Of a stretch of DNA of 64,000 bases, positions 38,133 through 64,000 are shown piece by piece; position 1 is the stretch's first letter, and every line of letters starts with the position of its first letter. The notes under the pieces were generated by a model. The model was not told the origin of the DNA and did no database searches. It saw only the letters and a list, made by a program, of their open reading frames with translations. The stretch is from positions 7,812,001-7,876,000 of the forward strand of contig NZ_CP109427.1 in assembly GCF_036250695.1 (NCBI RefSeq). The letters run 5' to 3'. The DNA comes from Streptomyces sp. NBC_01497 (lineage in GTDB: Bacteria > Actinomycetota > Actinomycetes > Streptomycetales > Streptomycetaceae). A program made the position numbers and the translations under genes.

Positions 38133-38871
<739 letters not shown>

Positions 38872-46829: not shown

Positions 46830-49800
46830 TCACCGGCGACGGGCGGGGAGCCCAGGCGGGTCACCTGCCCCGGACCTCCCGGGCCCTTTGGACCCCTGCC
46901 CCGGCACCACACGCATGCCCAGACCGCGTACGCGGTAGATGCAGGTGTCGTCGCCCCACAGGGTCGCCTCGGCCGTGGCGTACGCACCCCGCGCGTCCCG
47001 GCCGGCCTCCAGGATCTCCATGTCCACCCTGATCAGCCGGCTGGCCGGGGTGATCTGGCCGCGGTAGGTCCACGTCACCTCCCGGCCGGGCAGCACCGGT
47101 TCGAACCGCGGGTGCGGGACACCGGCGGTCATGCCGCGTTCGAGCAGGTAGTACTGGAGCAGCTGGCACATCGCCTCGACGCCCAACGAGCCGGGCTGCA
47201 CCGGGTCCTGGAAGAAATGCGCCCGGAAGAACCACGCGCCCGCGTCGACGTCCTTCTCCGACCGCAGGCGGCCGAGCCCCGCCCTGCCGCCGGCCGGCCA
47301 GTAACCGGTGACGCGGTCCAGCATCAGCAGCATGGGGCCGGGCAGCCGGACAGGACCGGCACAGTGGCGTGCGGGCCGCGCGGTGAGGTCGACGGTGTAC
47401 GCGCACGGTTCGTCGAGACGGACCCGGTCCTGTGCCGACACCGTCAGACCGGCCTGCTGGTCGAAGGCCGAGGGTGGGAAGTAGCCGAACACGGTGGAGA
47501 GTTCGAAGAGCGGGGCGCCGTCCGCTGTGCACCGGACCTCGAAGGCCTCGATGATCATGCCACCGCTGCGCGAGATACGGATCACCTCGGCGTGGGTGCG
47601 TACCGTCCTCGTCTCGGGAGTGACCTCGCCGGTGACGGTTCCCGATCCGTCGAGGTTGCGGAACAGCAGGTCCGCGTCGGTGCTCAGCGCGCTGCCGACG
47701 TAGGAGGCCAGCCACCCGCACGGTTGCAGCGCGACCTCCAGGAGGACGGCGAAGGGCATCGTCGTGCCGCCGCTCTGCTCGAAGTACCAGGCCGCGTCCG
47801 GCACGTCGTACTCGGCCACGACACCGCTGCCCTCCCGCATGCCGCCCTGCGGACCGTCCGTCCCCACGACGCGGGTCATGAAGTGGTACGGGGGGCCGGG
47901 CAGGCGTGCCACCCTGCGGGCACTGTCGAACGGGGCGTACGCGGCGCCGAACGCCTCACTCGGCCTGCCCCAGGCACAGGCCAGCAAGGAGGCGTATCCG
48001 AAGGAGAACCCGTCCACGGTGGCCACCTGCCCGCTCTCCCGGTGGCCGGCCAGCCCGCCGAGCGCCGGGAGCGGCACCTCGGCCCCGCTGGTCTGCGGGG
48101 CGGGTGGGCCCGAGTGACGCCAGTGCGAGAGCGGCCAGTCGGGCACCAGCCGCAGCGCCACGTCCCGGCCGTGGAACGCCTTGATCCCGTCCACGGTGCC
48201 CAGGACATCGGCGTACAGCGTCGGCGAAGGACCGGACGAGACTCCGCGCACGAACACCTCGTAGACGACCCGGCGGCTGTCCACGGTGGCCTGGCCGCGG
48301 CAACTGGCCGAGAAGGGGACCTCGTCGACGGGCTCGAAACGCCATCCGTCCCGGTCCACGGTGTAGCCCAGGGCCGCCAGGTAGAACGCCATCGCCTGGA
48401 GGCCGCCCTGCAGCATCAGGGTGCCGGGCATGCACGGATCGTTCTTGAAGTGCCCGGCGAAGAACCAGTCGTCCGGCCTCACCGGTGTCTCGGCGCGCAG
48501 ATAGCCCCGGCCCCACGGCCCCCCGGCCGGGTCGAAGGCCGTGACCTCGTGGAGCAGGCGCAGCCGGCCGTCGTCGATCCGAGGCGGGCGGACGTGGGAC
48601 GCGGTCGCCTCCCAGCCGGGACCGAAACAGTCCGCCGGCCGCCCCTGAGCCAGGGCCCGCACCTGTCGCGCGGTAAAAGCGCTCACAGCGCAGCGCACGG
48701 AGGGAGGGTCGAGGGGCAGCCCGTCGCCGGGCCGGTCGTCGGCGGGGTCCCACCGCACACCGGCGCTGCCCAGCAGTTCGGCCGGGGTGAAGAAGCCGGC
48801 CCGGCCGTCGCGGACGCTGAGCCGGAGTTCGCCGTCGACCCGGCAGTCGTAGTGGAAGAAGAACAGCCGGACACCGTCGTGTTCGGCGTGGCCGTCGATA
48901 TGGATCTCGTAGCACAGTGTGTCACCCGCTTCGGGCGGCCCGCCGTGGAAGGTCAGCTCGCAGCCGAGCAACCGGTAGGCGCGCTCGCCCCGGTTGAGGA
49001 GGTCCACACCGAGCCAACTGGCCAGCAGCAGGTCGGCCTGGCCGGCTTCGATCATCAAGCCGGCCGGCATCCGGCCCGTGGCGTCGAGATACCAGCTGTC
49101 GCTCCTCACGTCGGTCTCGGTCCATACCGTTCCGCTCGTACGCACCGGTCCTGGCGCGGCGAGCGCCGCCGGTACCGCGTCGATGCCGGTCACGCGGTCG
49201 GCGAGCAGCATGGGCGGTTCGGGCATACGGGTCTGCACCGCGTACCCGTCCTGCGCGGCGAACCGGGCTCCGAAGAGGGCGGAGACCGGCCGGGAGGCGA
49301 GGTGTTCGAGCTGGGCCCGGTCGAACTTCGGTCCTGGCAGGGGCGGTTGTGGCGGCGCCTTCGGCTCGGGACACCGGCCGGGCGCGGGGGACCGGCCGGG
49401 AAGGGTCTCGGGAACGGTCCGGGAAACGGAGACGGGAGGGGACGCGGGCGACGGTGACGGCGACTGGTCGGTGGCTGCGGTGGCAGCCGGGCTCGGCGTG
49501 GGGGCGCCGGCCACTCGTACGGGGACCGCGGGCGTCCCGACACCGCTGCCGGCGCGCGCCAGCATGGTGACGGCCCGGGCGGACACCCGCAGGAACTGCT
49601 GATGGGCCTCGGCGTGCCGGGCGGTGATCTCCTGGTGGAGCGCGATCGCCCGGCGGGTCTGGCGGGCGACCAGGTCCTGAACGCTCCCTGGTGCTGGTGC
49701 TGGTGCTGGTGCTGGTGCTGGTGCTGGTGCGGGGGAGCGGCCGGCCGGCTCCTGCTCCTGACGGGGCACGGGCACGGCGTCGGGGGAGACAGCGGGCACG

Positions 49801-52800
49801 GGCACGGCGTCGGGGGAGACACCGGGCACGGGCACGGCGTCGGGGGAGACACCGGGAGAGGACGTGATGTCGGCAGAGGTGTCAGGGGCGGGCACGGTTT
49901 CGAAGGAGGCGGCGGGGGCCGCCGCCGGGTGGGCGGGCCGGTCCGGTACCGGCGCCAGTTCGGGAGCCCTCGGCATGATCACCACAGGTGCCTGCGAGGA
50001 GACGGGGTCCGGCGCCGGCAGCCGCGGTGGCCCGGGCACGGCCACCGTGAGGGTGGGACCGGGCCCGGCGGGGTCCACCGCGGCTGCCTGGAGCCGCCCG
50101 AAGAGTTCGTCGGCCCGTAGGGGCACTCCGGCGACCACGAGTTCGGCCACCGCGAGGCTCAGCTGCCGCAGCCCCTGATCGTCCGGGGCGTCGAGCGCGA
50201 CGGCCACATGGTCCCGTTCGCCCAGCACGCGCCTGATCCAGCCCGTGCACAGCGCGCGTGGCCCGTGCTCGACGAAGACCCGGACCCCGTCGGCCCACGC
50301 CTGTTCGACCGTACCCGCGAAGTCGATCGTGCCGAGGCCCTGTGCGGTCAGCGCGTCGGCGGCCCGCTCGGACGTCGGGGCGTACGACTGCCGACTCGCC
50401 CCGCTGTAGAACCGCACCCCGGGTACCTCGACGGTGGGCCGGTGGTGCACCGCGCGCCACTCCTCCCGCACCTCGGCGACCTCCGGCACGTGGGCGGCGA
50501 TGTCGTAGTCGATCGCGAGGGCGCGGTCGGCACCGAGCCGGGCCACGACGGCCGCACAGGCCCGTGACTCGCCGCCGATGACGCACACGCCCGGCGCGTT
50601 CACCGCCATCAGGTGTACCGCGGCCTCGGCCGCGAGTTCCGCACGGACCGAGTCGAGGGGCGCGCTGACCAGGTGGCTCGACCAGCGGGAGCCCCGGACA
50701 CCCGCACGTTCCCAGGCGTGCCGTACCGCCCGCAGCTCACCGGTGAGTTCGTGGGTGAACAGGCCGCTTCGCCTGATGTCCTCGTACAGGCCGGCGGCGT
50801 CCGGCCAGGCCCCGAGGGCGATCAGCGCCGCCGATTCGCCGGAGGAGTATCCAAGGGCGGCGTCCGGCCGCAGGCCGAGCACCTCGCGGGTCAGGACGGT
50901 GTGGACGGTGGCGAGTTCGGCGGCGCCCCAGATCTTCTCGAGCACCCCCGTCACCGGTGCGGACCGCATCCGGCGGCCGACGGCCCCGTGGGACGACCTG
51001 ATGCTCTCGCCCAGCGAGGGCAGCGCGAGCATCAGCGCGTGCCCCATCCCCCGGTAGGAGGCCGAGCCGTTGGTGTACACGAAAGCGGTGCGTCCCGTCA
51101 CCGGCTCGTCCCGGTAGCGCACGTCGGCAGGCCGGGGACCGCCCTCGGTCAGCCAGCGTCGGGCGGCCTCCTGTCGACCCGGCAGTTCCGCGTCGTCCCG
51201 CACCACGATCGCCAGCCGGGCCGGGCCGTCGCCGGAGCGGGTACCTGATTCCAGTGCGGCCAGCACCTCCCGGCGGTCGCCCCCGGAGAAGACGTGCAGA
51301 CGCGGGGCGGGCCCCCGCAGCCACGGCCGGGCGTCGCCCGCGCGCAGCCTGACCCGGACGGCCGGGCCCTGCAGCGGTGAGACGACCGCCGCCGCCGTAC
51401 GGGGCGAGGCACCAGTGTCCGCGGGCTCACCCGGACGGGGCACCGCACGGTGCTGCAGGGCCGTCGCCGCGACCGCGACGGAGACGAGCCCCTGGGCCGC
51501 GTGAGCGCGGCCGAACGCCGCGGCCGGGTCGAACCCGGCGTCCTCACCGTCTCCGATGACCATGTCGGGCGGCTCGGTTCCGGGCGCGTCGCCGGGCTCC
51601 TCGTCGAGCAGCGCCATGACGGTGTCGCCGTCCCTGCGGGCGGCGTCCAGCGACTTGAGGACCAGGACCACGGCGGCGTCACCCGGTTCGGCGTCCCGGC
51701 CGAGTTCGCGCAGGGCGGCCCGGTGGACCGGCTCGCAGGACAGGTCGACGGCACCGACGAGCGCCGCGTCCGCCTCGCCCGCCCGGATGGCCCGGGCCGC
51801 GAGGTTCAGCGCCACCAGACCGGACGCCTCCTCCGCCGACACCGCGAAGCCCGGCCCCGCCAGGTCGAGCTGGGTGTTGATCCGGTTCGCCACGAGATTG
51901 GGCAGGCTGCCGACCACCCGCTCCGCGCTCATGGGCGGTGCGAAGGCGTCCCCGGCGCCGGGCGCCGCCGGGGACGGGGGAGCGTCCGGCCCTGCCTGCT
52001 CCAGCCAGTACGGCAGCCGCCAGCGGGCACCGGCGCGCGCCACCCCGGGGTCGACGCCGGCCCCGATGACCACCATGGTCCGCTCACGGGGCAGCGCCAC
52101 CCCCCGTACGGCCTCACGGGCGGCTTCGAGCACCAGGAGCTGCTGGGGCAGGGTCTGCTCCAGCGCGAGCGGCGGGAAGGCCAGGCCCGCCAGATCCACC
52201 GTGATCGCGGTGGCCCGGCCGCGCCGTTCACCGCCGAGCACCGCGCGCCGGAAGTCCTCGGTGCCGGTCCCGTCGCCGACCCGGGCGCCGAGGGCGACGA
52301 CGGCCACTCGGGGGGAATACCCGTGCGTTCCCGGCGCCGGACGCGCGGGGGGCCGCCCGGCCGTGAGGACGGGCGACCCGGGGAGCGCCGGGGCCGTGGA
52401 GCCCGCGCCCGCGCGTCCCGGCGCGGGCACGGCGAAGACCGGCGCGTCGTCCGGGAGGTCCAGGATCAGGTGGGCGTTGGTGCCGCCGAAACCGAAGGCG
52501 CTGACCGCCGCCCGGCGCGGACCCGGCCACGGCTCCGGCGCGGTCAGCACCCGCAGCGGCGCCCCGCGCAGCGCGGCGATCGGACGCTCGGCGCCGAGCG
52601 AGGCCGGGCGGATTCCCGTACGCAGGGCACCGAGCACCTTCAGCAGTCCGGTCACGCCCGCCGAGGCCAGCAGGTGTCCGACATTGGATTTCGCCGAGCC
52701 GACGGGCATGTCGTCCGCCGCGCCGTAGATCCGGGCCATGCTCCGCGCTTCCACCGCGTCCCCGACGGGAGTCCCCGTCGCGTGGCACTCGACGAGGGAC

Positions 52801-53765
52801 ACCGACTCCGGCGCGACGCCCGCCCCGGCGTACGCCAGGCGCATCGCCCGCACCTGACCCTCTTCCGCCGGGCTGAGCAGCCCGCCCCCGCGCCCGTCGT
52901 TGGACAGCCCGATGCCGCGGATCACCCCGAGAACGGGCAGGCCCGCGGAGCGCGCCTGCGACAGCCGCGCCAGTGCGACGAATCCGGCGCCCTCGCCGTG
53001 CATCAGCCCGTCCGCGTCCTCGTGGAAGGGCCGGCTGCGGCCGGTCCTGCTCACCGCGGACAGGCCGCAGAACCCGACGTGCAGGAAGAGGTTGTCGACC
53101 CGGTTGACCGCGCCGGCCACCATCAGATCGGCCGTGCCGTCGTGCAGGCGGTCGCATGCCAACTTGATCGCGTACAGCGACGAGGCGCAGGCGGCGTCGA
53201 GCGCCCAGGCCCCCGCGCCGAGACCCAGCGCACGGGCCGCGAGAGCGGCCGGGAGCCCGGAGGAGAACCGGTTGCGCGCGTCGGGCCGCACCCGGCGCTC
53301 CCCCGTCAGCAGGGCGTCGCGGACGGAGGGTTGCTGGGCGGACAGCCACACGTGCTCGGCGAAGGTCGATCCCGCGGCCGTGGGATACGACAGGGTGCCG
53401 AGCACCAGGCCCGCGCGCGGCAGCGGCCCCTCACGTCCGGCCTCCGTGAGCGCCTGCCTGACGCCGTACATGACCCACTGGAAGAGCGGGTCCAGAGCCG
53501 TGATCCGGTCGGGGGCGATCCGGAAGCCCCCCGGGTCGAAGACGGACTCGAACCCCCGCACGTACCCGCCGACATCGGTCCAGGTGCGGTCCAGATGCTC
53601 CTCCACCGAGCCCATGGCCCAGCGGTGCGGCAGCCGCCACCGCCCCTCCGGAACGGCCGACAGGCTGCTGCGGCCCGCCGCGATGTTGTCCCAGAACGTG
53701 TCCGGGTCGAGCGCGTCGGGCAGCACACAGCCCCGGCCGACGACGGCGATCGGTTCGAATCCCAT
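46830..53765 (-). CDS. PfaC-like PUFA-synthase subunit: KS-CLF-AT-DH-DH
   Basis: 2311 aa. KS ~5-440 with Cys193 (LDAACASS), His328 and His364. CLF-like KS ~485-810, where the Cys position is Glu646 (SAEEASG), so inactive in condensation. Acyltransferase ~890-1190 with GYSSGE (Ser974), where Tyr replaces the usual His of GHSxGE. Pro/Ala-rich linker ~1240-1480 with tandem repeats. Then two double-hot-dog FabA-like dehydratases: DH1 with Glu/Gln half (~1565, MIEAGQ) and His1772 (WFFAGHF); DH2 with ~2010 (LLEVAL) and His2183 (WFFRAHF). This KS-CLF-AT-DH-DH order is that of myxobacterial Pfa3, while gammaproteobacterial PfaC lacks the AT. No C-terminal acyltransferase domain follows. Starts 57 bp after the PfaA-like gene. 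Confidence 0.92.
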   Translation of the reverse strand: MGFEPIAVVGRGCVLPDALDPDTFWDNIAAGRSSLSAVPEGRWRLPHRWAMGSVEEHLDRTWTDVGGYVRGFESVFDPGGFRIAPDRITALDPLFQWVMYGVRQALTEAGREGPLPRAGLVLGTLSYPTAAGSTFAEHVWLSAQQPSVRDALLTGERRVRPDARNRFSSGLPAALAARALGLGAGAWALDAACASSLYAIKLACDRLHDGTADLMVAGAVNRVDNLFLHVGFCGLSAVSRTGRSRPFHEDADGLMHGEGAGFVALARLSQARSAGLPVLGVIRGIGLSNDGRGGGLLSPAEEGQVRAMRLAYAGAGVAPESVSLVECHATGTPVGDAVEARSMARIYGAADDMPVGSAKSNVGHLLASAGVTGLLKVLGALRTGIRPASLGAERPIAALRGAPLRVLTAPEPWPGPRRAAVSAFGFGGTNAHLILDLPDDAPVFAVPAPGRAGAGSTAPALPGSPVLTAGRPPARPAPGTHGYSPRVAVVALGARVGDGTGTEDFRRAVLGGERRGRATAITVDLAGLAFPPLALEQTLPQQLLVLEAAREAVRGVALPRERTMVVIGAGVDPGVARAGARWRLPYWLEQAGPDAPPSPAAPGAGDAFAPPMSAERVVGSLPNLVANRINTQLDLAGPGFAVSAEEASGLVALNLAARAIRAGEADAALVGAVDLSCEPVHRAALRELGRDAEPGDAAVVLVLKSLDAARRDGDTVMALLDEEPGDAPGTEPPDMVIGDGEDAGFDPAAAFGRAHAAQGLVSVAVAATALQHRAVPRPGEPADTGASPRTAAAVVSPLQGPAVRVRLRAGDARPWLRGPAPRLHVFSGGDRREVLAALESGTRSGDGPARLAIVVRDDAELPGRQEAARRWLTEGGPRPADVRYRDEPVTGRTAFVYTNGSASYRGMGHALMLALPSLGESIRSSHGAVGRRMRSAPVTGVLEKIWGAAELATVHTVLTREVLGLRPDAALGYSSGESAALIALGAWPDAAGLYEDIRRSGLFTHELTGELRAVRHAWERAGVRGSRWSSHLVSAPLDSVRAELAAEAAVHLMAVNAPGVCVIGGESRACAAVVARLGADRALAIDYDIAAHVPEVAEVREEWRAVHHRPTVEVPGVRFYSGASRQSYAPTSERAADALTAQGLGTIDFAGTVEQAWADGVRVFVEHGPRALCTGWIRRVLGERDHVAVALDAPDDQGLRQLSLAVAELVVAGVPLRADELFGRLQAAAVDPAGPGPTLTVAVPGPPRLPAPDPVSSQAPVVIMPRAPELAPVPDRPAHPAAAPAASFETVPAPDTSADITSSPGVSPDAVPVPGVSPDAVPVPAVSPDAVPVPRQEQEPAGRSPAPAPAPAPAPAPAPGSVQDLVARQTRRAIALHQEITARHAEAHQQFLRVSARAVTMLARAGSGVGTPAVPVRVAGAPTPSPAATAATDQSPSPSPASPPVSVSRTVPETLPGRSPAPGRCPEPKAPPQPPLPGPKFDRAQLEHLASRPVSALFGARFAAQDGYAVQTRMPEPPMLLADRVTGIDAVPAALAAPGPVRTSGTVWTETDVRSDSWYLDATGRMPAGLMIEAGQADLLLASWLGVDLLNRGERAYRLLGCELTFHGGPPEAGDTLCYEIHIDGHAEHDGVRLFFFHYDCRVDGELRLSVRDGRAGFFTPAELLGSAGVRWDPADDRPGDGLPLDPPSVRCAVSAFTARQVRALAQGRPADCFGPGWEATASHVRPPRIDDGRLRLLHEVTAFDPAGGPWGRGYLRAETPVRPDDWFFAGHFKNDPCMPGTLMLQGGLQAMAFYLAALGYTVDRDGWRFEPVDEVPFSASCRGQATVDSRRVVYEVFVRGVSSGPSPTLYADVLGTVDGIKAFHGRDVALRLVPDWPLSHWRHSGPPAPQTSGAEVPLPALGGLAGHRESGQVATVDGFSFGYASLLACAWGRPSEAFGAAYAPFDSARRVARLPGPPYHFMTRVVGTDGPQGGMREGSGVVAEYDVPDAAWYFEQSGGTTMPFAVLLEVALQPCGWLASYVGSALSTDADLLFRNLDGSGTVTGEVTPETRTVRTHAEVIRISRSGGMIIEAFEVRCTADGAPLFELSTVFGYFPPSAFDQQAGLTVSAQDRVRLDEPCAYTVDLTARPARHCAGPVRLPGPMLLMLDRVTGYWPAGGRAGLGRLRSEKDVDAGAWFFRAHFFQDPVQPGSLGVEAMCQLLQYYLLERGMTAGVPHPRFEPVLPGREVTWTYRGQITPASRLIRVDMEILEAGRDARGAYATAEATLWGDDTCIYRVRGLGMRVVPGQGSKGPGRSGAGDPPGLPARRR
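49690..49730. repeat. Hexanucleotide repeat ggtgct, six copies plus five bases, inside the PfaC-like linker
   Basis: Pure ggtgct units (minus-strand codons for Pro-Ala) encode a (Ala-Pro) run in the interdomain linker. In-frame hexamers allow the linker length to change without breaking the protein. Confidence 0.95.
49762..49851. repeat. Three 30-bp tandem repeats inside the PfaC-like linker
   Basis: Copies at 49762-49791, 49792-49821 and 49822-49851 differ by a single base and encode PGVSPDAVPV-type decapeptides on the minus strand, next to the hexamer array. In-frame, so length change is tolerated. Confidence 0.93.
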
Positions 53766-53822
53766 ACGAATCTCACTTCATGACGCGGACACGGTCCGGG
53801 CGCGTGCGGGGCCGGCGTGGGC

Positions 53823-56800
53823 TCAGGACGGACGGCGCACGAGTTCCACGCCCAGCAGTTCGGCACGCACGGACCCGTCGGGATCGAGCAGCGCGACATC
53901 GCACCGCGCCCCCGTCTCATGCGTCTTCCGCGCCCGCACCACGCACCGCACGGTCTCGCGCACCGCGCCGCGCCGGTACACACCGCACTCCGCGACCGCC
54001 ATGGGCAGCGTCGCCTCACCGAGTACGTGCTCCCCCCAGAGCAGGGCGAGTTGGAGCGCGCCGTCCACGGCGGCCGGGTCGAGCGGCCAGGGGCCGCCCG
54101 GCCAGCCCAGCGCCTGCGTGCCCAGCACGGTGGCCTCGGCCCCGTGAGGTGAGACCCCGTGCACACTGCGGAGCGCGCGGAAGCGGGGCCCGTGGAAGAG
54201 GACCCGTCCGTCGTAGACCTCCGGGCCGGCCGGTGGCTCCAGAGCGTCCGGGGTGCCCCACGCGCTCGGATCGGGTTCCGCCGCATCGAACTCCAGCACG
54301 GCGCCGACGTGCGGTACGCCGTCCTCGTCCCGCAGTTCGGCCTCCAGGTGGGAGGGCTCGCCGACGGTGGCACGGCGGCCGGACACCGTGAGCCGGTGGC
54401 CCTCGCCGGCGAGGTGCGGCAGGACGAGCTTCCTGTACACGCGGACATCGCGCAGGACCAGCCGGTCGGTGTCCGGCCGCCAGGCGCCGGCCGCGCCGGT
54501 GAGCCAGTTCAGAGCCATCGCGACGGGCAGTACGGGTACGCCGGCCGGCTGGTGGTCGGCCAGCTGCGGATGGGCGCCCTCCCGGATCAGTACCCGCGCC
54601 GGGCGGGGTCCCGCCGCGGAGGACGTGGCCGACGCGTCGTCGCCGGCCGCGATGACGACGCGGGGCTCCCCGGCCGTGGCGTCCAGCTCGGCCGAGAAGG
54701 CGGCGGCGCCCCGTTCCAGGGGGATGAGCCCGACGCCCGAGCGGCCGAAGTGCCCCGCCAGGGCGGGGGTGACCATGCCACCGTGCCACGGGCCCCAGGC
54801 CACGGAGCGCACCAGGCAGCGGGGGCGGCGCGCGGCCTGCGCGGACGCCACGTGGTTGAGCACTTCGTTGGCCATGGCGTAGTCGCACTGGCCCTCGTTG
54901 CCGAACACGGCGGCAACCGAGGAGAACAGGCAGATCATGTCCAGCGGATCGTCGGCCGTCGCCGTCAGCAGCGCGCGCAGGGCGTCCACCTTGGTCGACA
55001 TCACCTGGTCGAACTGCTCGTCGGTCTTGTCGGCGATCCGCTTGTCGGCCAGCACCCCGGCCCCGTGCACGACACCGGTGATCGGGCCCCACGACGCGCG
55101 GATCTCGCTCAGGGCGGCGGCGAGTGCGTCGCCGTCCCGCGCGTCGACCGCGACGTAGCGTACGGCGGAACCCGCGGCCTCCAGCGCCGCGAGCGTCGCG
55201 CGGACCTCGCGACCCGCCAGGATCTCCCGGGCCCTCACGGCGATCTCGCCGGGAGGGCAGGTGTCCGCGCCCTCGGCGGCCCGCTCCGCCAGCAGCCGGG
55301 TGAGGGCCGGTTCGTCGGCCGCCGCATCCAGCCCTGCCGGTTCCGGGGACGGCCGGGTCCTGCCGAGCAGGACGAGCCGGGGCCGGTGTTTCCTGGCCAG
55401 GTCCAGCAGTGCGGCGGCGGTCACACCCCGCGCCCCTCCGGTGGCCACGATCACCGACTCGGAGGTGATCCGCGCCGCGCCGCCGGGCGCCGGCGCCGAA
55501 GGGAGCGCCCGCAGCGTGTGGCGGGTGCCGTCCGCCCGCAGACCGACCTCCAACTCGGGTCCGCCTTCGAGGAGTTCCCGCACGATGGCCTCAGCGAGTT
55601 CCTCGGGGTCACGCCCGCCGCTCTCGCAGTCGATCGCCTTGACCGAAGCGTCCGGCCACTCCTTCGCCGCCGTCCTGGCCAGAGCGGCGATCCCGCCCAG
55701 CCACGCCCGGTCGGGACGGCGACCGCCGAGCCCGAAGTCACCCCCGGTGTCCTGCACGGTCACGAACAGCCCGCCCGTCGCGGCCATGCGCGCGCCGACT
55801 CGGCGAGCGGCACGAAACGCCGATCGGTGTGCTTCCCGCGCTTCGTCCGCGGCGCCGGTCCCGGTCAGAGCGCCGAGGTGGATCACACCGTGCGCGTCCT
55901 GGGGAACATCCGTCACGGCGGTGGCCTCGATCCCGTATCCGGTCAGCTTCCGCGCGACCAGAGCGGCGACGTCGCCTTCGTCGGTGCCCCCTCCGGTGAC
56001 CACCAGCGGGCCGTCCCCGAGGGACGCCATCGCCAGCCCGGACGGGGGTGATTCCACCGCACGCGGCACCAGCCTGGTCAGGGCGACCGGCCGTACGGGC
56101 TCCCCGCGCATGGCGGGGATCGCCGGCGCGCCGGCCGGCACCGCGGTCTCCGGCTCCGCGGTCTCCGGCGCTCCGGTCTCCGGCTCCCCGGCCTTCGGCT
56201 CCGTGATGTCCTGCTCCTGGGCGGCGCTCTCGCGGTCCGGTGACGCGGCGGCGGGGTAGTCCGGACCGGTGAGGGCGTCCGCGATCTCGCGCAGGGTGCG
56301 GAGCTTGCCGAGCTCGGCGATGCTCTCGGCCGGTACGTCACCCGCCTGTTGGCGCACGGCTGACAGGATCTCGACGCGTTTGATCGAGTCGACGCCCAGA
56401 TCCGCTTCCAGCTCCATGTCCGCGTTGAGCATGGTCTCCGGATAGCCGGTGAGCCGGGCCACCACCGAGATCAGCAGTTCTTCGAGCCCGCGCGCCGTCA
56501 GGGGCTCGGCGACCCGGACGGGCCCCGCCGCTGTCGCCGTGACGCCCTGGCGGGCCGCCGGGACCTTCTGCGGGGCGGGCGGTGTCGCGTCCCGAGGCGG
56601 CCCGGCGAGAACCGGGGGCGCCGGGGCCTCGAACCGCGTCGCCTCCGGTGGCTGCGGCTGCGGTACGGGTGAAGGGTGCCGTACCGCCGGTACCGCCTCG
56701 GGACGCGGCGACGGAGACGGTGGGGGAGAAGGGGCGGGAGAGGGTGACGGCAGGTGGAGCGGTACGGACGACGCGGTGCCGGGCACCCCGTCGATGCCCT

Positions 56801-59800
56801 GCGCCCCGAGCATCGCGCCGAGGGTGGTCTCCGTCATCCTCAGGAAGGCCATATGGCTGTCGATCAGCATGCGCTGACACGCCGTATGGGCTTCCGCCGT
56901 CTGCCGCTGGACGCTCTCGACGAGGGCGTACCAGTCGGAGCCCGCGTGGGGCACGGGCACCGGTTGGTACGCAGGGGTCGGTGTGTACGGCGCCACCGAT
57001 GCGCATTCCGGCGGCATCTGCTCGTACTCCGGCTTCCGCTCGTACGGCGACACCTGCTCGTACTCCGGCTTCCGCTCGTGCTCCGACGCCGGCGCGTACG
57101 ACGGCACCTGCTCGTACGGGGGCATCGGCTCCCGCGGGGACGTCTGCGCCGCCACCGGCTCGGCGACGGGCACGGGTTCCGGGCGCTGCCGGGCCGGCGG
57201 GGTGGGCGCGTCGGGCCGGGGCGTCCGATGCGCGGGAAGGACCGGGTTCCCACCGGTGGGCGGGAAGGGCTGCCCGTAGTTGGCTCCGCCGATCTTCACG
57301 GTCATGCGCGGCTCGCGCTCCTTCGCTGGTGCGCCGGGCGGCCCGTACGGCGCCCAGAGGTGTTCGTAGTCGAGCGGCGTCCCGCCGACGGCGAGTCGGC
57401 CGAGCGCGGCGTGCAGACTGCCGGCCCCGCACCGGCCCGGCCGGTCCAGGGGGACGGCCGCGTGCTCGCGGTCGCCGAGGATCTGACCGACCAGGCCGGT
57501 CAGCGCCGTGCCCGCGCCGACCTCGATGAAGGTCCGCACCCCCGCCGCGTACATCGCCTCGATCTGGTCGTGGAAGAGCACCGGCGAGGCAAGGTGGCGC
57601 GCGAGCCTCACGCGCACCTCGTCCGGGGAGGCGGGGTACGGGGTCGCGTCCGCGTTGCCGTAGACCTCGATGCGGGGCTCCCTGAGGGGGATGCCGTCCA
57701 GCAACGCGGAGAGCCGTTCACCCGCCGGAGCGACCAGGGGACTGTGGAAGGCGATCGATGTGTTCAGCCGGCGGGTGGCGAGCCCCTTGGCCGCGCACGC
57801 CCGCTCGACCTCCGTGATCGCCGCGGTCGTGCCCGAGAGCACCACTTGCCGGGGGGAGTTGTGGTTGGCGGGCCACACGTCCCCGAACCCGCCCCCGGCG
57901 AGGACGGCCGCCACCTCTTCGCGGCCCGCGGCCACCGCCAGCATCGCGCCGGGGGCGACGGCCGCGTCCCGCATCAGTGTGCCGCGTCCGCGGGCCAGCG
58001 CGACCAGGGACCCGGCGTCCAGGACACCGGCGCAGTGCAGGGCGACCAGTTCGCCGAAGCTGTGGCCCGCCACGCAATCCGGCCGCAGACCGAGCCCCCG
58101 CACCACGTCGAGCAGGGCCAGGCTGTTGACCGCGAGGGCGGGCTGCGCCCACTCGGTGGCGGCCAGCCGGGCAGCCGCGTCCGCACGCTCCTCGTCCGAG
58201 AAGGACGGCGGGGGGAACACCACCCGGTGCAGCGGACAGCCGTCGAACTCCACGCTGCCCAGCCGGTCCCAGACCGCCTGCGCGTCGGGTGACAGCATGG
58301 CCAGGTCCGCGCCCATGCCCACGTACTGGGCGCCCTGCCCGGGAAAGAGGAAACCGGTCCGTCCGGGCGCGGGAGCCCCGGCGGCGTAATGGATGTCGTT
58401 CGGCGTGGAGAACGCGGTGTCCGGGTGCTGCCGGATCAGCTCGGTCGCGGCGGCGAACTTCTCCGCCAGGTCCTCGGCTCCGCTGGCGACGACGGCCAGA
58501 CGCACCGGCGCCGTGGGTGAGAACGTGCTCTGGCTCTCCCGGGCGAGTTCGGCCAGCGGCCGGCCGCCGTCGGGGACCGAGGCCCGCAGAGCAGATGGCG
58601 ACGCGGCACTGAACAGGACGAGTTCGCTCCGGGCGCAGCGCTGGCGCCACGCAGCACGGCCCGAGACTGCCGATGCCACGTACTCCTCCAGCGTGACATG
58701 GAAGTTGCTGCCGCCGAACCCGAAACTCGACACCGACGCCCGGCGTGGGTGATCGGGTGCGCGGACCCACGGGCGGGCGCGGGTGTTGACGTAGAAGGGG
58801 CTGTCCGGGGCGGTGGTCGCGGGATTGGGCCGGTCGACCTTGATGGTGGGCGGCAGCACCTTGTGGTGCAGGGACATGACCGCCTTGAGCAGCCCCGCCG
58901 CGCCGGCCGCGCACTTGGTGTGGCCGATCTGCGATTTGACCGAGCCGAGGGCGCACCACTGCCGGTCAGCGCGGCCCGACTCACCGAACACCGCCCGCAG
59001 TGCGGACAGTTCGGCGGTGTCCCCGGACCTGGTCCCGGTGCCGTGCGCCTCGACCAGTTCCACGGTCTCCGGTCCGTAGCCCGCCTCCTCGTAGGCGCGC
59101 CGCAGGGCTCTCGACTGCCCGTCGGGCAGGGGCGCGTAGATCGCGGTGCTCCTGCCGTCGGACGAGGTGCCGATGCCGCGGATCACCGCGTGGATGCGGT
59201 CGCCGTCCCGTTCCGCGTCCGACAGCCGCTTGAGGGCGTACATGACGACGGCCTCGCCGAGCATCGTGCCGTCGGCCGCGTCGGAGAACGGCCTGCAGTC
59301 ACCCGTGGGGGACAGCGCGGGTGTCTTGGAGAAGCACACGAACATGCCGACGTCGTTCCCGGTGTCGACGCCTCCGCTGATCACCAGGTCCGACCGGCCG
59401 AGCTCCAGTTCACCGATCGCGGTGGACAGGGCGGCCAGCGAGCTGGCGCAGGCCGCGTCGGTGGTGTGATTGGTGCCGTGCAGGTCGAACCGGTTGGCGA
59501 TCCGGCCCGCGACGACGTTGCCGAGCAGTCCGGGAAAGGTCGATTCCCGCCACGGCGCGAAGTGTTCCGCGATGCGGTCGCACACGGCCTGCGCCTCGGC
59601 CTCCGGGACACCGCTCTCCCGCAGGGCTTTGAGCCAGACCGGCCGGTGGGTGCGGCCGTACATGTGCGGAAGCAGTTCCAGGGACGCCGCCCCGAGGACG
59701 ACGCCGACCCGGTCCCTGTCCATGCCTGCCACGCCGCCGGCGTCGGCGAGCACCTGGTCGGCGACCATCAGGGCGAGCAGTTGGGCGCTGTCCGTCGCGG

Positions 59801-60125
59801 ACAGGTTGGCGGGCGGCACACCGTAGGCCAGCGGATCGAAGTCGACCTGGGGCAGGAAGGCGCCCCTGCGCGCGTAGGTCTTGTCGGGGGCGGCCGGATC
59901 GGGATCGTAGTGGTCCGCCACGAGCCAGCGGGAGGCGGGGACGTCGGTGATCAGGTCCCGGCCGCCGATCACGGTCCGCCAGTAGCCTCCTGCGTCCGTC
60001 GCGCCCGGAACCAGCGCTCCGACGCCGACCACGGCGACGGGTACCTGACGGCGGGGGCCGGTGCCGGACTCTCCCGGGTGCCGGACGACCGCTGTCGAGG
60101 GCCGTGGGCCGAGGGGGCCGCTCAT
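53823..60125 (-). CDS. PfaA-like PUFA-synthase subunit: KS-MAT-ACP-KR-DH, single ACP
   Basis: 2100 aa. KS ~28-485 (Cys226 in TTDAACASS, His361, His402). Malonyl/acyltransferase ~585-900 (GQGAQ, GHSFGE with Ser689, His794). Linker ~930-1205 with YEQ/Pro repeats. One ACP ~1212-1288 (ADLGVDSIKRVEIL, Ser1247). KR ~1360-1810 (ATGGARGV cofactor site; Ser and Tyr1749 in LFSSVAAVFGNEGQCDYAMANEV). PS-type dehydratase ~1845-2095 (ADHQPAGVPVLP with His1858; Asp in AVDGALQLAL). The layout is Pfa2 of myxobacterial PUFA synthases, which carry several tandem ACPs; the lone ACP is unusual. ATG 60125 overlaps the PfaD-like stop (ATGA), so the two are translated together. TIGR02813-like family. Confidence 0.93.
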   Translation of the reverse strand: MSGPLGPRPSTAVVRHPGESGTGPRRQVPVAVVGVGALVPGATDAGGYWRTVIGGRDLITDVPASRWLVADHYDPDPAAPDKTYARRGAFLPQVDFDPLAYGVPPANLSATDSAQLLALMVADQVLADAGGVAGMDRDRVGVVLGAASLELLPHMYGRTHRPVWLKALRESGVPEAEAQAVCDRIAEHFAPWRESTFPGLLGNVVAGRIANRFDLHGTNHTTDAACASSLAALSTAIGELELGRSDLVISGGVDTGNDVGMFVCFSKTPALSPTGDCRPFSDAADGTMLGEAVVMYALKRLSDAERDGDRIHAVIRGIGTSSDGRSTAIYAPLPDGQSRALRRAYEEAGYGPETVELVEAHGTGTRSGDTAELSALRAVFGESGRADRQWCALGSVKSQIGHTKCAAGAAGLLKAVMSLHHKVLPPTIKVDRPNPATTAPDSPFYVNTRARPWVRAPDHPRRASVSSFGFGGSNFHVTLEEYVASAVSGRAAWRQRCARSELVLFSAASPSALRASVPDGGRPLAELARESQSTFSPTAPVRLAVVASGAEDLAEKFAAATELIRQHPDTAFSTPNDIHYAAGAPAPGRTGFLFPGQGAQYVGMGADLAMLSPDAQAVWDRLGSVEFDGCPLHRVVFPPPSFSDEERADAAARLAATEWAQPALAVNSLALLDVVRGLGLRPDCVAGHSFGELVALHCAGVLDAGSLVALARGRGTLMRDAAVAPGAMLAVAAGREEVAAVLAGGGFGDVWPANHNSPRQVVLSGTTAAITEVERACAAKGLATRRLNTSIAFHSPLVAPAGERLSALLDGIPLREPRIEVYGNADATPYPASPDEVRVRLARHLASPVLFHDQIEAMYAAGVRTFIEVGAGTALTGLVGQILGDREHAAVPLDRPGRCGAGSLHAALGRLAVGGTPLDYEHLWAPYGPPGAPAKEREPRMTVKIGGANYGQPFPPTGGNPVLPAHRTPRPDAPTPPARQRPEPVPVAEPVAAQTSPREPMPPYEQVPSYAPASEHERKPEYEQVSPYERKPEYEQMPPECASVAPYTPTPAYQPVPVPHAGSDWYALVESVQRQTAEAHTACQRMLIDSHMAFLRMTETTLGAMLGAQGIDGVPGTASSVPLHLPSPSPAPSPPPSPSPRPEAVPAVRHPSPVPQPQPPEATRFEAPAPPVLAGPPRDATPPAPQKVPAARQGVTATAAGPVRVAEPLTARGLEELLISVVARLTGYPETMLNADMELEADLGVDSIKRVEILSAVRQQAGDVPAESIAELGKLRTLREIADALTGPDYPAAASPDRESAAQEQDITEPKAGEPETGAPETAEPETAVPAGAPAIPAMRGEPVRPVALTRLVPRAVESPPSGLAMASLGDGPLVVTGGGTDEGDVAALVARKLTGYGIEATAVTDVPQDAHGVIHLGALTGTGAADEAREAHRSAFRAARRVGARMAATGGLFVTVQDTGGDFGLGGRRPDRAWLGGIAALARTAAKEWPDASVKAIDCESGGRDPEELAEAIVRELLEGGPELEVGLRADGTRHTLRALPSAPAPGGAARITSESVIVATGGARGVTAAALLDLARKHRPRLVLLGRTRPSPEPAGLDAAADEPALTRLLAERAAEGADTCPPGEIAVRAREILAGREVRATLAALEAAGSAVRYVAVDARDGDALAAALSEIRASWGPITGVVHGAGVLADKRIADKTDEQFDQVMSTKVDALRALLTATADDPLDMICLFSSVAAVFGNEGQCDYAMANEVLNHVASAQAARRPRCLVRSVAWGPWHGGMVTPALAGHFGRSGVGLIPLERGAAAFSAELDATAGEPRVVIAAGDDASATSSAAGPRPARVLIREGAHPQLADHQPAGVPVLPVAMALNWLTGAAGAWRPDTDRLVLRDVRVYRKLVLPHLAGEGHRLTVSGRRATVGEPSHLEAELRDEDGVPHVGAVLEFDAAEPDPSAWGTPDALEPPAGPEVYDGRVLFHGPRFRALRSVHGVSPHGAEATVLGTQALGWPGGPWPLDPAAVDGALQLALLWGEHVLGEATLPMAVAECGVYRRGAVRETVRCVVRARKTHETGARCDVALLDPDGSVRAELLGVELVRRPS
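57018..57079. repeat. 36-bp direct repeat in the PfaA-like linker
   Basis: The 26-bp sequence starting ctgctcgtactccggc at 57018 recurs at 57054 (36-bp period). On the minus strand it codes for ERKPEYEQ-type units of the linker before the ACP. Confidence 0.85.
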
Positions 60126-61705
60126 GCGAGCCTGACCGGTGTGTAGGTGAACGCCGAATCCGGCAACGGAACCCCGTAGGTGCGCAGTTGGTGGGCGCGG
60201 GTGAGCACGGCCGCGCCTTCGAGGAGGTTGAGAGCGATCTGCACCACGGACCGGTTCGCCGGGTGCGCGAGGAAGGTGCCCGCGGCCCACTGGTTGAACG
60301 CGCCCATCGCGGGGCCGCACCAGATCTGGTAGTCGGAGCGGCGGGCGCTCTCCCCGGTGATCGCCCACCTGCTGGAGTTCCCGAGGTACCAGCGGAAGAC
60401 CAGTGCCATACGGTGTTTGGCGTCCGTCTCCGCCCGCGTGAGCTCTGACCGGTCCCGCTGGTGCCAGAACGCGCGGGTGCGCTGCCAGACCTCGTCGACG
60501 GAGGCGCCGAGCACATCCCTTTCGATGGCGGTGCGCAGCGGCTGCGGAAGCTCCTCCAGCGAGTCGTGCTCCTGGTACGCGGCGAGGAGGCGCGCGGCAC
60601 GCCGGGCGAACAGGGTTCCACGGGAGAGCACTTGGAGTTTGACTCCCCACTCGAACATGTCGGCGGCCGGTGCCATGCTCACGTCGGCGATGTCCGCCTC
60701 GCACAACATGGCCTTGGCCTCGTCGGACAGTCCCGCCTCGGTGGCGGTCTGGTTCACCGATCCGACGACCACGTAGGACGCGCCGAGCGCGAACGCGGCG
60801 GCCACCGCGCCCGGTGTGCCCAGTCCGCCGGCCGCGCCGATCCTGACCGCTTGGCGGTAGCCGAAACGCCGGCCCAGTTCGTCGCGCAGCAGGACGATGC
60901 GCGGCAGCAGGGCCGCCAGAGGACGGTTGTCGGTGTGCCCGCCGCTGTCCGCCTCCACCGTGATGTCCTGGGCCACCGGCACCTGGGCGGCCAAGTCGGC
61001 TTCCTCGGAGGTGAGTTCCCCCTCGGTGACGAGCCGGCGCAGCAGCTCGGGCGGTGCGGGCGTCAGGAACTTCCGGGCCACCTCGGGACGGGAGACCTTG
61101 GCCAGTATCCGGCAGCGCCGCAGGATCCGCCCGTCGCCGGCCCGGTGCAGCCCCCGGGCCGAGCACAGCACGACGGCGGGTGTCAGCTCCATGAACGCCG
61201 AGGCCGAGATACGCGGTACGCCGCGCTGCAGCAGCAGCTTGGCGACGCGGAACTCCAGTGCGGGCTCGGCCGGTGAATGAATCAGGTTCACGCCCCAGTT
61301 CGCACGGCCCCGCAGTTCGTCGGCCAGCGCGCGCACGGCCCGCTCCACCTCGGCGAATCCGAGTCCGCCCGCGCCGAAGAACCCGAGCATCTCCGCCCGG
61401 GCCATCGCGCTCACCATCCGGGTGGTGGCGATACCATTCGCCATCTCGCCCGCCACATAGGGGAAACGGACGCCGTGCGCCTCGCAGAAGGCACGCCCGC
61501 CGAGCCACTCGGGATACAGCGGAGGCAGGGTGCCGAGCACCGGACCGCTGGGCGCAGGGCCGGTGGCAAGCCCCACCTCACGGCCGCTCGGGTCGGTGAC
61601 GATGTGCACGGGTTCCCGGATACGCCGGGCACGGTCGGCGATCTCGTCGGGGGAGTGGACGGTCCGGGAGGGGAGAGCGGGGGCGTGACCGGCGAGGACG
61701 GACAA
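60122..61705 (-). CDS. PfaD-like enoyl reductase (trans-acting, FMN TIM barrel)
   Basis: 527 aa from a TTG start at 61705; this start is chosen because GGAG lies 7 bp upstream and no ATG or GTG occurs in frame before the conserved sequence. The PfaD family fingerprint is complete: VLGTLPPLYPEWLGGRAFCEAHGVRFPYVAGEMANGIAT, HTDNRPLAALLP, IGAAGGLGTPGAVAAAFALGASYVVVGSVNQ and MFEWGVKLQVLSRGTLFARRAARL. It reduces enoyl groups in trans during chain building, belongs to the nitronate-monooxygenase-like flavoproteins, and is the first of the three synthase genes. Start position is the least sure point. Confidence 0.93.
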   Translation of the reverse strand: MSVLAGHAPALPSRTVHSPDEIADRARRIREPVHIVTDPSGREVGLATGPAPSGPVLGTLPPLYPEWLGGRAFCEAHGVRFPYVAGEMANGIATTRMVSAMARAEMLGFFGAGGLGFAEVERAVRALADELRGRANWGVNLIHSPAEPALEFRVAKLLLQRGVPRISASAFMELTPAVVLCSARGLHRAGDGRILRRCRILAKVSRPEVARKFLTPAPPELLRRLVTEGELTSEEADLAAQVPVAQDITVEADSGGHTDNRPLAALLPRIVLLRDELGRRFGYRQAVRIGAAGGLGTPGAVAAAFALGASYVVVGSVNQTATEAGLSDEAKAMLCEADIADVSMAPAADMFEWGVKLQVLSRGTLFARRAARLLAAYQEHDSLEELPQPLRTAIERDVLGASVDEVWQRTRAFWHQRDRSELTRAETDAKHRMALVFRWYLGNSSRWAITGESARRSDYQIWCGPAMGAFNQWAAGTFLAHPANRSVVQIALNLLEGAAVLTRAHQLRTYGVPLPDSAFTYTPVRLA

Positions 61706-61830: not shown

Positions 61831-62943
61831 TCAGGCCGTCGTCACCCGTCTCGGGCCCAGCCCGGACCACAGGTAGTCCAGGTCCACCCGGACCGCGGAC
61901 GCCGGCGGCCCGAACAGGGTCCGTACGCGGGTGTCGTCGAAGCGGCGACGGTGACTGAGGTAGGCCGTGAAGCCCGGATAGAAGTCCATCAGCGCTTCGA
62001 GCGCGGACGCGTCGCCGGGCTTCTCGGCGACCAGGCCCAGGTCCAGATGCGTGAGGCGTGCCAGGAGGGAGACGATGGCCGAAGCGGGGACGTCGTGGCC
62101 GTGGACGACGTGGTACGTGTCGACCCCGGCCGAGGCAGGCCGGCTGGCCAGCCGCAGCATGATCTCGGCCGCGTCCTCGACCGGCATCAGGTTCAGATGA
62201 CCGTGCGGGTGTCCCACCAGCCGCATCCGGGGGCGGTGGCCCCCGGGGGCGCCGTCGCCGTCGAGACCGGCGGTGCGCATCGAGTCGCGCAGGATCCGCT
62301 CGATGACCTGAAGGGGGTGCGCGGGCAGGTCCGGGTGCGCGGGCAGGTCCGTGACCAGGATGCTCGGCCGCACCACCACGACCGGGCGGCCGTGTTCCCG
62401 TGACCACGCGCGCACCAGCCGCTCCGCCTCGTACTTGGATCGCTCGTAGGCGTTCTCGAAGCCGTACGTGTCGTCCAGCTCGTCCTCGTACGCGACACCC
62501 TCACGCCGTGCCCCGGCCACGAAGGAGGTGCTGACGTGGCGGATCAGGGGGCGTCGGCGCCCAGCGGCGGCCAACTCCAGTACGTGCCGGGTCCCTTCGA
62601 CGTTGATGCGGCGCAGCTGTGCCAGATCCCCTTCGAGGTTGATGCTTCCCGCGCTGTGCCAGATCGCGTCGATCCCGTCGGCCAGTTCCTGGAAGTCGTC
62701 CCCGGACAGCCCCAGTCGCGGCTGCTCCAGTTCGATCTCCACCACGCGGAGCCGGCCGGGGAGCGATGCGATCAGGGCGTCCTCTGTGCCGGACAGTTCG
62801 AGGAACCGCGTGATGCGGTGCCGGGCATCGCCGGAGCCCGCGTGGGTCAGGACCGTCAACGACGCTTGTGTCGCGAGTAGCCGGCGCAGGAGGCGGAGCC
62901 CGAGGAACCCGGTGGCGCCGGTGAGGGCGACGTGCACGACCAT
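61831..62943 (-). CDS. Thioester reductase-like / fatty acyl reductase (NAD-binding_4)
   Basis: 370 aa. Rossmann motif VALTGATGFLGLRLLRRLL, the active-site-type segment YERSKYEAERLVRAW (Tyr-x-x-x-Lys: YERSKYE), and HVSTSFVAG with DTYHVVHG are those of extended SDR reductases of the thioester-reductase and FAR group. Such domains release acyl chains from carrier proteins as aldehydes or, with a second reduction, alcohols. ATG 62943 is used; GGAG is very close (2 bp) upstream, so GTG 62979 is an alternative. It lies 125 bp before the PfaD-like gene on the same strand and likely opens the operon. Confidence 0.85.
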   Translation of the reverse strand: MVVHVALTGATGFLGLRLLRRLLATQASLTVLTHAGSGDARHRITRFLELSGTEDALIASLPGRLRVVEIELEQPRLGLSGDDFQELADGIDAIWHSAGSINLEGDLAQLRRINVEGTRHVLELAAAGRRRPLIRHVSTSFVAGARREGVAYEDELDDTYGFENAYERSKYEAERLVRAWSREHGRPVVVVRPSILVTDLPAHPDLPAHPLQVIERILRDSMRTAGLDGDGAPGGHRPRMRLVGHPHGHLNLMPVEDAAEIMLRLASRPASAGVDTYHVVHGHDVPASAIVSLLARLTHLDLGLVAEKPGDASALEALMDFYPGFTAYLSHRRRFDDTRVRTLFGPPASAVRVDLDYLWSGLGPRRVTTA

Positions 62944-63552
62944 GACTCCAAGGGCCTGGAAGAGGACAGGGACGCACACGGTGGTGCGGACGGCCGGCGG
63001 CCGACAGGGTCCGTCCCGCTCACGCGGGGCGAGCCGGTTGCCCCTCGTCCCCGGGCGTGCCCGGGCCCGGGGTTCACCGACTCAAGAGGAACAGTGGCAG
63101 TCGATGAGGGGAGACGGGGAGCCCCTGCCCCCGCAGCTCACCCGAACGGTGTACTCCGGGCGGGTGCCCGGCTGACGTCCTGTGGCGCGTGTGACAGCAA
63201 CGGCCGGTGCGTACAGGCTCGATGACACGGGCGCCGGCTGCAGCGAGGTCCAGAGCTCCGTCATCATTTCGGGTGAGCCGGCGGACGCTGCCCCGGGAGG
63301 TGGTTCTGGCGGCTCGGGGGCGGGCTGACGAGCGGCGCACGCCGGACGGCTTCGCCGTGGCGCCACTGGCGGGCCGGCGGACCGCGTGCGGGAGCGGCTG
63401 CGGGGCGGGCGGGTGCCCCGATATAACCCTGCGGGTACGAGACGACCGCGGGTGGACGGCGTGGTACGAGCCGGGCCGGCCCCTCGGTGCCGCGCGCCCC
63501 GACCGGCTGCCCCCGTCCGTTCGCGTGCACGCCGACGAGAACTGGAGCCTTC
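62944..63552. promoter_or_regulatory. Divergent intergenic region, reductase / WS-DGAT-like gene
   Basis: 609 bp. Frames crossing it have no start signal or good codon bias. It must carry the promoter of the giant minus-strand synthase operon and of the plus-strand acyltransferase. No clear promoter pair or operator was recognised; the stretch 63415-63440 (ccgatataaccctgcggg) is the least GC-rich and could include a -10 element for the plus-strand gene. Confidence 0.45.
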
Positions 63553-64000
63553 ATGACCGTGCCTGCTCAGCCCGTTCCGTCCGTCCGTCACCGCACACAC
63601 TCCGTGGACCGCGCGTTCCTCAACCTGGAACGGACACATCCGCACGTCCGCTGGGACGCCGGCGGGGTGGCGTATCTGAGCGGCCCCCCGCCGAGCCTGG
63701 CGGATCTGCGCGCGTACGTGGACCTGTGCCTGCCCGGACTCCCCATGTTCACCACCCGTGTGGAGGGCGCCCCCCGGCGCTCCTGGTGGCTGCCGGACGC
63801 CGACTTCACCGTGGAACGGCATGTCCACGAAGCGGTCGCGGACGGACCGGCCCAGTGGGAGTCCGCCATGGACACGGCGCTCAACGCGCCCTTCTCGCCC
63901 GGCGCCCGGTGGGGGATCTGGCTCGTCCACGGCCACTCGCCCGACACGTACGCGGTCTGCTACCGGTTCCAGCACGCCTGCCAGGACGGATCGGCCGCGG
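63553..64000 (+). CDS. WS/DGAT-like acyltransferase, N-terminal part (runs off the window)
   Basis: 149 codons are visible and the frame is open to the window end. The N-terminus (VDRAFLNLERTHPHVRWDAGGVAYLSG) and the following strand-helix pattern fit the wax-ester synthase / diacylglycerol acyltransferase family. The catalytic motif, usually HHxxxDG, appears as FQHACQDG (one of the two His is Gln, the second His and Asp-Gly are kept). ATG 63553 has CTGGAG just upstream. The enzyme would transfer an acyl group to an alcohol or glyceride, which fits its position beside an acyl reductase and a fatty-acid-like synthase. The C-terminal half must be seen to confirm the family. Confidence 0.7.
   Translation, partial: MTVPAQPVPSVRHRTHSVDRAFLNLERTHPHVRWDAGGVAYLSGPPPSLADLRAYVDLCLPGLPMFTTRVEGAPRRSWWLPDADFTVERHVHEAVADGPAQWESAMDTALNAPFSPGARWGIWLVHGHSPDTYAVCYRFQHACQDGSAA

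Follow-up and report, generated by a model that had tools for sequence, protein, structure and literature searches.

A Pfa-type lipid synthase cluster of Streptomyces linked to a thioester reductase and a WS/DGAT-like acyltransferase is a candidate source of wax-type esters

The right end of a 64,000-nucleotide stretch of the Streptomyces sp. NBC_01497 genome (positions 7,812,001 to 7,876,000 of an 8.55-Mb contig, in a genome of 9.08 Mb; hereafter the window) carries a cluster predicted to encode a Pfa-type secondary lipid synthase, a stand-alone thioester/acyl reductase, and a divergently transcribed WS/DGAT-like O-acyltransferase. Judging from sequence comparison, the acyl chain is very probably released by the reductase, and a wax-type ester is the likeliest, if unproven, main product of the cluster.

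The synthase genes lie on the minus strand and comprise a PfaC-like, fused PfaBC subunit (46830..53765, 2311 residues, assigned from Pfam and NCBIfam profiles and sequence), a PfaA-like subunit (53823..60125, 2100 residues), and a PfaD-like enoyl reductase (60122..61705, 527 residues), whose start was placed at the TTG at 61705, where the proteins of relatives also begin. The reductase gene heads this series on the same strand (61831..62943, 370 residues) and is separated by a divergent promoter region of 609 bp (62944..63552) from the WS/DGAT-like gene on the plus strand (63553..64863, or L001:5553-6863; 436 residues), of which the window holds only 63553..64000. Gene calls, domain matches, and catalytic motifs bear out the genes and gene order read from the bare sequence by a first-pass annotation, including its ATGA overlap, the four bases at 60122-60125 shared by the PfaD stop and the PfaA start. 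That annotation had also suggested looking past position 64000 for the remainder of the WS/DGAT-like gene and for a phosphopantetheinyl transferase. The reading frame indeed ends at 64863, but no such transferase was found among the flanking genes scanned, and two matches lie elsewhere in the genome. Since the same block occurs in many genomes, its arrangement is not due to chance.

On profile and motif evidence, the three large genes qualify as a Pfa-type secondary lipid synthase, with PfaA and PfaD profile matches, a KS-CLF PfaC, and two dehydratases. PfaA scored 1155 bits against the NCBIfam profile TIGR02813 (cut-off 1010), with KS, AT, one ACP, KR, and PS-DH domains by Pfam, and PfaD, scanned using a longer 582-residue start, scored 648 bits against TIGR02814 (cut-off 449). 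Pfam resolved PfaC into a KS, a KS-like CLF, an AT, and three FabA stretches (PF07977), the last forming two double-hotdog FabA-type dehydratases with their histidines in WFFAGHF and WFFRAHF. The closest solved structure to PfaC is ORF10 (chain 6riw, residues 4-686, E 8.8e-98), the Moritella KS-CLF for polyunsaturated fatty acids (PUFA). Catalytic motifs were judged intact by eye: DAACASS in the KS of both PfaA and PfaC, GHSFGE and GYSSGE in the AT domains (the latter in PfaC), and DLGVDSIK in the ACP of PfaA, while the CLF of PfaC lacks the active cysteine (AEEASG). PfaA has a single ACP rather than a tandem array. Exactly one ACP motif was present in 41 of 45 open reading frames longer than 1500 residues from the window and the loci fetched by reductase, the other four being the window PfaC, two Nocardia polyketide synthases, and the PfaA of L069. 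Tandem ACPs are described as usual, not obligatory, and single-ACP clusters were kept by the authors of that survey (PMC3098273).

The reductase belongs to the SDR family and has the features of a thioester reductase R domain, namely, an NAD_binding_4 match (PF07993, 162 bits against a cut-off of 20) with a Rossmann motif (TGATGFLG) and a conserved YxxxK (YERSK). Its G9-G15 region, Y166, and K170 are invariant across nine reductase sequences, and its closest solved relative is MxaA (4u7w, E 1.9e-28). The sterile C-terminal domain of eukaryote-type fatty acyl reductases (PF03015) was not listed for this protein at E 0.1. The possibility that the reductase makes an aldehyde for hydrocarbon formation was set aside, as no aldehyde-processing enzyme was found among the scanned neighbours.

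The WS/DGAT-like protein scored 26.3 bits against PF03007 (cut-off 23.6), and its predicted fold is nearest to the solved wax ester synthases 6chj and 7nxg, with which it shares 16-18% identity. In a tree of 30 WS/DGAT rows, the reductase- and Pfa-linked forms stand apart from six other Pseudonocardiaceae WS/DGATs with support of 100/100; the Pfa-linked forms of Streptomyces and Pseudonocardiaceae fall into separate subclades. Long branches in this tree were flagged by the program. Just one other WS_DGAT gene was found in the genome of the window (L138, 7473-11064, near position 0.17 Mb); it lies directly behind an MmpL gene and near genes judged by eye to be of terpene type. A 2008 paper reportedly studied the WS/DGAT homologues of S. 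coelicolor.

The dehydratase region of PfaC was sought in 150 Streptomyces genomes, including that of the window, and was matched in 23, of which 7 were close (at least 59% identity, window included), 12 shared 33-38% identity, and 4 were partial. The distant synthases evidently form a different branch: PfaD comes after PfaC in every map showing PfaD, and among 10 readable PfaA sequences with 1-4 ACP motifs, 8 have 2-4 (two have split gene calls). Within the same 150 genomes, the reductase was present in 7, and the WS/DGAT-like gene in 6 of these 7 and in only 1 of the 143 others; genome G036 has both genes, and PfaC was not found in it. The reductase alignment was then scanned against one genome per species, yielding 58 named loci, and PfaD adjoins the reductase in 49 of them (four of the nine remaining lack room for it). 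After five of these 49 were set aside for short flanks, the WS/DGAT-like gene was linked in 33 of the 44 loci judged, with 28 in divergent orientation and 5 co-directional or fused; one of the latter, L062, has a truncated linked copy and was reassigned from none to co-directional. All 12 genomes first scored as negative for this gene hold some WS_DGAT match somewhere, but in two of them the sole match is the truncated linked copy of L062 or a fragment of 89 residues. As the loci are related, neither these linkage counts nor the site counts given below are independent. A search for plasmid copies returned three weak records, two from the same strain.

Rearranged clusters bring the reductase and the acyltransferase closer still. 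In two Allokutzneria genomes, both domains are encoded in one open frame of 779 or 814 residues (confirmed by Pfam in L089), with PfaD following the fusion. PfaA was absent from the 10 kb examined, and the clusters of this genus may therefore be partly dispersed or decayed. No second full-length fusion was listed in a class-wide search of 394 genomes, which took two candidates per genome and can miss some. Two other Pseudonocardiaceae, Actinophytocola and Saccharothrix, share the order reductase-WS-PfaD-PfaA-MmpL with a convergent PfaC, the Saccharothrix MmpL being assigned by clustering with Pfam-confirmed MmpL proteins. The pair also occurs without a Pfa gene alongside at three loci: in Actinoallomurus, WS-AurF-reductase stands beside an MmpL gene and is followed by ACP and KS genes, with a Pfa-like cluster elsewhere in the genome; in Streptomyces G036, the order is WS-acyl-CoA dehydrogenase-reductase; and in L097, WS and reductase lie together at the end of a contig, the genome having no match to PfaC. 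As side observations, a second Allokutzneria Pfa cluster (L117, L118) comes after OleC- and OleD-like genes, with an OleA-like gene also in L118 (judged by eye), and a linkage of ole and pfa genes has been mentioned before (PMC3098273).

Beyond the WS/DGAT-like gene, many Streptomyces relatives carry paired ABC ATPase and permease genes (21 of 57 mapped loci), a secreted protein of 173 residues (21 loci), and an FMO-like gene (13 loci), identities that rest on the L044 copies, whose permease had no Pfam match. The whole gene set, ABC and FMO genes included, is present in L160, a close relative with a reductase 82% identical to that of the window. The joined 98-kb stretch around the window was searched for the FMO, ABC, and second WS/DGAT genes seen in relatives; among the neighbours used as queries, only the places of the WS/DGAT-like gene, the reductase, and PfaD were matched, and a genome-wide search for the ABC orthologue gave a best match of 40% among 42 ABC matches. 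A second, distant WS/DGAT-like gene was seen just past the main one in L160 (6276-7469), L045, L047, and L049.

Taken together, linkage, fusion, Pfa-less pairs, exporter genes, and predicted fold favour a mechanism of release followed by esterification. PfaA, PfaC, and PfaD would act iteratively to assemble a long ACP-bound acyl chain, which the SDR reductase would free by thioester reduction, either in two steps to the alcohol or via an aldehyde. The WS/DGAT-like enzyme would then join the released alcohol to the acyl group of a thioester, forming a wax-type ester that is probably exported in relatives of the cluster. The first-pass annotation had proposed this same sequence of reductive release and esterification, and the order of events is strengthened by the comparative evidence, while the wax product itself stays conjectural. 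We infer the substrates, the reductase electron count, the chain length and unsaturation, the export, the identity of the regulator, and all timing in this strain.

Several observations weigh against a wax ester. No product has been observed, and both terminal enzymes fall under the curated cut-offs of their more specific profiles (107.3 against 309.95 bits for TIGR02946 in the WS/DGAT-like protein, and 144.8 against 213.35 bits for TIGR01746 in the reductase). The acyltransferase of the window reads QHACQDG rather than the full HHxxxDG, and the first histidine is replaced in 9 of 11 Streptomyces sequences, window included, with HH in the other two. The second histidine and the DG are retained in the Streptomyces sequences, and four Pseudonocardiaceae cluster proteins have HHALLDG. 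For two members of the linked side of the tree, L126 (from the genome of the window itself) and L135, the fetched stretches showed neither a reductase nor a Pfa gene, so this subfamily is not confined to pairing with the reductase. Linkage is likewise imperfect: 11 of the 44 judged loci have no linked acyltransferase, and the Frankiaceae loci described below show none; of the seven close synthases, G060 lacks matches to both the reductase and WS/DGAT and G133 has no WS/DGAT match; and L159 has WS-PfaD-PfaA with no adjacent reductase. Finally, WS/DGAT-family proteins can do other chemistry, because Ccb1, which is likened here by description and not by sequence, acylates a quite different acceptor in actinomycete secondary metabolism (PMC5416915).

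Among the alternatives, the one that survives best, itself unlikely, takes the released long-chain alcohol or aldehyde as the product, or as a piece joined to another head group, with the acyltransferase as an optional add-on. In its favour, 11 of the 44 judged loci (L085-L088 among them) have no WS/DGAT-like gene nearby. The Frankiaceae point the same way: all nine loci with room show reductase-PfaD-PfaA and no WS/DGAT-like gene in the fetched stretch (L150-L158), while the contig of a tenth, L161, ends at the reductase. These stretches end 0.1-2.2 kb beyond PfaA, where a PfaC further on would escape detection, and one of the nine duplicates the record of L093, which is among the 11. However, an orthologue of the acyltransferase is divergent in 28 loci and, in a further 5, fused or co-directional, and both L043 and L160, the nearest relatives retrieved, retain it. 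Independently of this question, Frankia may produce long-chain alcohols from the Frankiaceae loci.

Slightly less probable again is a direct transfer, in which the WS/DGAT-like enzyme would move the Pfa-made chain straight from the ACP to another acceptor, with the reductase making a separate molecule or the acceptor itself. PapA5 provides a parallel, as it transfers an acyl chain from a carrier protein. Ccb1 takes its chain from CoA (PMC5416915). The Allokutzneria fusion and the three reductase-WS pairs without a Pfa gene speak against direct transfer and make the reductase product the more probable partner of the acyltransferase.

It is improbable that the chain feeds a hybrid metabolite (an amine, glycolipid, peptide, or oxidised lipid) in which the ester is only a part and to which the FMO and ABC genes of relatives belong. 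The recurrence of these genes in 13 and 21 of the 57 mapped loci is consistent with such a product, as is the L031 locus (3148-6307), where a P450-like gene, and no reductase, stands before PfaD; this substitution, which also counts against a fixed reductase step, suggests that chain-ending enzymes may be exchangeable. The zeamine and fabclavine pathways, which join a Pfa-like synthase with a stand-alone thioester reductase (PMC13291983), offer a precedent. In contrast, the neighbours scanned around the window cluster included no aminotransferase, glycosyltransferase, or nonribosomal peptide synthetase gene.

A PUFA synthase for membrane or protective fatty acids, as the older label of an eicosapentaenoic acid (EPA) cluster says, is very improbable, for although the PfaA and PfaD profiles exceed their cut-offs, PfaC resembles ORF10, and published papers label the S. 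coelicolor cluster EPA, PfaA has one ACP rather than several, the conserved reductase heading the operon would use up the acid, and a 2011 account describes PUFA production by S. coelicolor as still undemonstrated (PMC3098273).

The wax-ester reading also has to be placed among known systems. The synthase itself, as far as its genes can tell, is not new and has the published layout of the Type L secondary lipid synthase, with pfaD 5′, then pfaA and a fused pfaBC (Shulse and Allen 2011, PMC3098273); Type L is listed there for S. coelicolor A3(2), S. ghanensis, Sorangium, and others, with its product unknown. The gene order here is likewise PfaD 5′, PfaA, and then fused PfaBC. The printed domain order is KS-CLF-DH2-AT, possibly a shorthand, compared with KS-CLF-AT-DH-DH here, and the accessible part of the account names no stand-alone reductase or acyltransferase gene, both of which adjoin the synthase in the window. 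The S. coelicolor EPA cluster SCO0124-29, so labelled in 2007, 2018, and 2020 (PMC2374992, PMC5932044, PMC7324645) and also in PMC6414726, is, we infer, the same as the window cluster, the basis for this orthology being the reductases of S. anthocyanicus and S. lividans (68-69% identical). In the literature searched, which covered few subscription papers, the cluster was neither given a product nor tied to a reductase plus a WS/DGAT enzyme, in agreement with the earlier statement that no product is assigned to this set. The suggestion of a candidate new pathway, made at the same time, has to be narrowed, since the synthase is a known type while the reductase-WS coupling is without a precedent found in the literature searched.

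Similar comparisons can be drawn with other Pfa-like systems. Myxobacterial Pfa1-3 presumably have the same gene and domain order as the window cluster, and Pfa3 ends in an acylglycerophosphate acyltransferase (AGPAT) domain. The window PfaC differs in having no Pfam match to this domain in its 2311 residues at E 0.001, and the cluster has a stand-alone reductase and a WS/DGAT-like gene instead. Sorangium falls within Type L (PMC3098273). The zeamine and fabclavine clusters resemble that of the window in combining a Pfa-like synthase with a stand-alone thioester reductase; however, neither its two megasynthase subunits nor the neighbouring genes scanned yielded an aminotransferase domain or a polyketide synthase gene, and a WS/DGAT-like gene takes their place. 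Heterocyst glycolipid (hgl) systems, compared by description only, also use a Pfa-like synthase and release the chain by reduction. These Type F synthases lack the DH/I domains of PfaC (PMC3098273), both of which are present in the window. As for the acyltransferase, the solved wax synthases 6chj and 7nxg share with it the predicted fold and the catalytic histidine with DG, and differ in the first histidine, which is mostly replaced here.

The intergenic region between the two divergent transcripts contains candidate regulatory sites. A conserved site, TACACCGTTCGGGTGA (63138..63153, minus strand), faces the reductase and agrees at 11 of 12 fixed positions with the BldM-WhiI Group II promoter consensus, TGnnCCGnnCGGGTGA, a group that includes the whiE spore pigment genes (PMC4125116), and by comparison with the same consensus a second half-site, TTTCGGGTGA (63267..63276, plus strand), faces the WS/DGAT-like gene. 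Across the intergenic regions of the window and 29 relatives, the best match reaches at least 10 of 12 positions in 29 of 30, against 6.75 expected from shuffles. The exact core CGGGTGA lies toward the reductase within 400 bp in 29 of 42 Streptomyces-clade loci, compared with 5 of 42 when facing the other way and 1 of 16 toward the reductase elsewhere; among 209 other 7-mers of equal composition, the highest count is 21. For this count, Saccharothrix L095 was placed by hand among the others, one of the 58 loci was dropped for a short upstream region, and the window was added. Toward the WS/DGAT-like gene, the core was found in 16 of 30 intergenic regions with one mismatch allowed.

Sporulation control of the cluster is plausible on these grounds, if a little short of probable. 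Two findings count against it: most copies here have A or C where the consensus has G at position 2, and control intergenic regions of the same loci reach 10 of 12 in 32 of 122 cases, after removal of 29 of 151 that overlapped the tested ones; the controls are shorter, with a mean of 463 bp versus 715 bp. Window-wide, six matches were found with one mismatch allowed, against 1.6 expected, three of them inside genes, and the whiE-like promoter of the window scores 10. As such matches recur, it is the conservation, not the single site, that serves as evidence. The site before the reductase fits the sporulation-timed transcription published for the S. coelicolor cluster (PMC2374992). A WhiG-type and one other promoter pattern gave one unconvincing match over the 30 intergenic regions, and a scan across the cluster found no sigma-70 promoter and two terminators (2.8 expected). 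Further intergenic BldM-WhiI-like matches were seen near the pigment cluster described below and left of PfaC, at 35375-35390 (no mismatch) and 46569-46584 (one mismatch).

In Streptomyces, the two divergent transcripts may be switched on late in sporulation via BldM-WhiI-type sites, making the product a candidate lipid of spores or aerial hyphae. What is added here to the known synthase is its coupling to the reductase-WS pair, together with the fusion of that pair, the linked exporter genes, and the site of sporulation type. More tentatively, all of these could be combined into a sporulation-specific exported wax-type lipid, with reductase and acyltransferase as a portable "wax-ending" module placed on varied chain builders (the Pfa synthase or discrete fatty acid synthase-like enzymes) and with the S. 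coelicolor EPA cluster as this very pathway. Linkage, fusion, and the conserved site turn the question to long-chain alcohols and wax esters in spores and away from free PUFA in vegetative membranes. If true, a neutral lipid of the spore stage would be identified for Streptomyces, and Pfa synthases would have a use not known before.

Neighbouring genes were also considered as cluster members. A secreted protein of 593 residues right of the WS/DGAT-like gene was rejected, having no match in any of the 58 loci, and for a CHMI-like protein of 118 residues and a zinc-ribbon protein of 137 residues linkage was not demonstrated. About 2 kb from the lipid cluster lies a whiE-like spore pigment cluster (37727-44970) with two KS genes, an SchA/CurD protein, and a divergent FAD hydroxylase. 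It was not counted in the cluster, as the corresponding S. coelicolor genes SCO5314-20 are far from SCO0124-29 (PMC5932044, PMC7324645); the loci of relatives stop inside PfaC or about 1 kb past it, short of this flank. Between the pigment and lipid clusters, a class F sortase stands beside a small protein with a GVDTG sorting domain (45046-46511). Farther left, glycoside hydrolase genes of families GH2, GH31, and GH3 with a sugar-binding protein (8839-22919) probably form a carbohydrate uptake locus.

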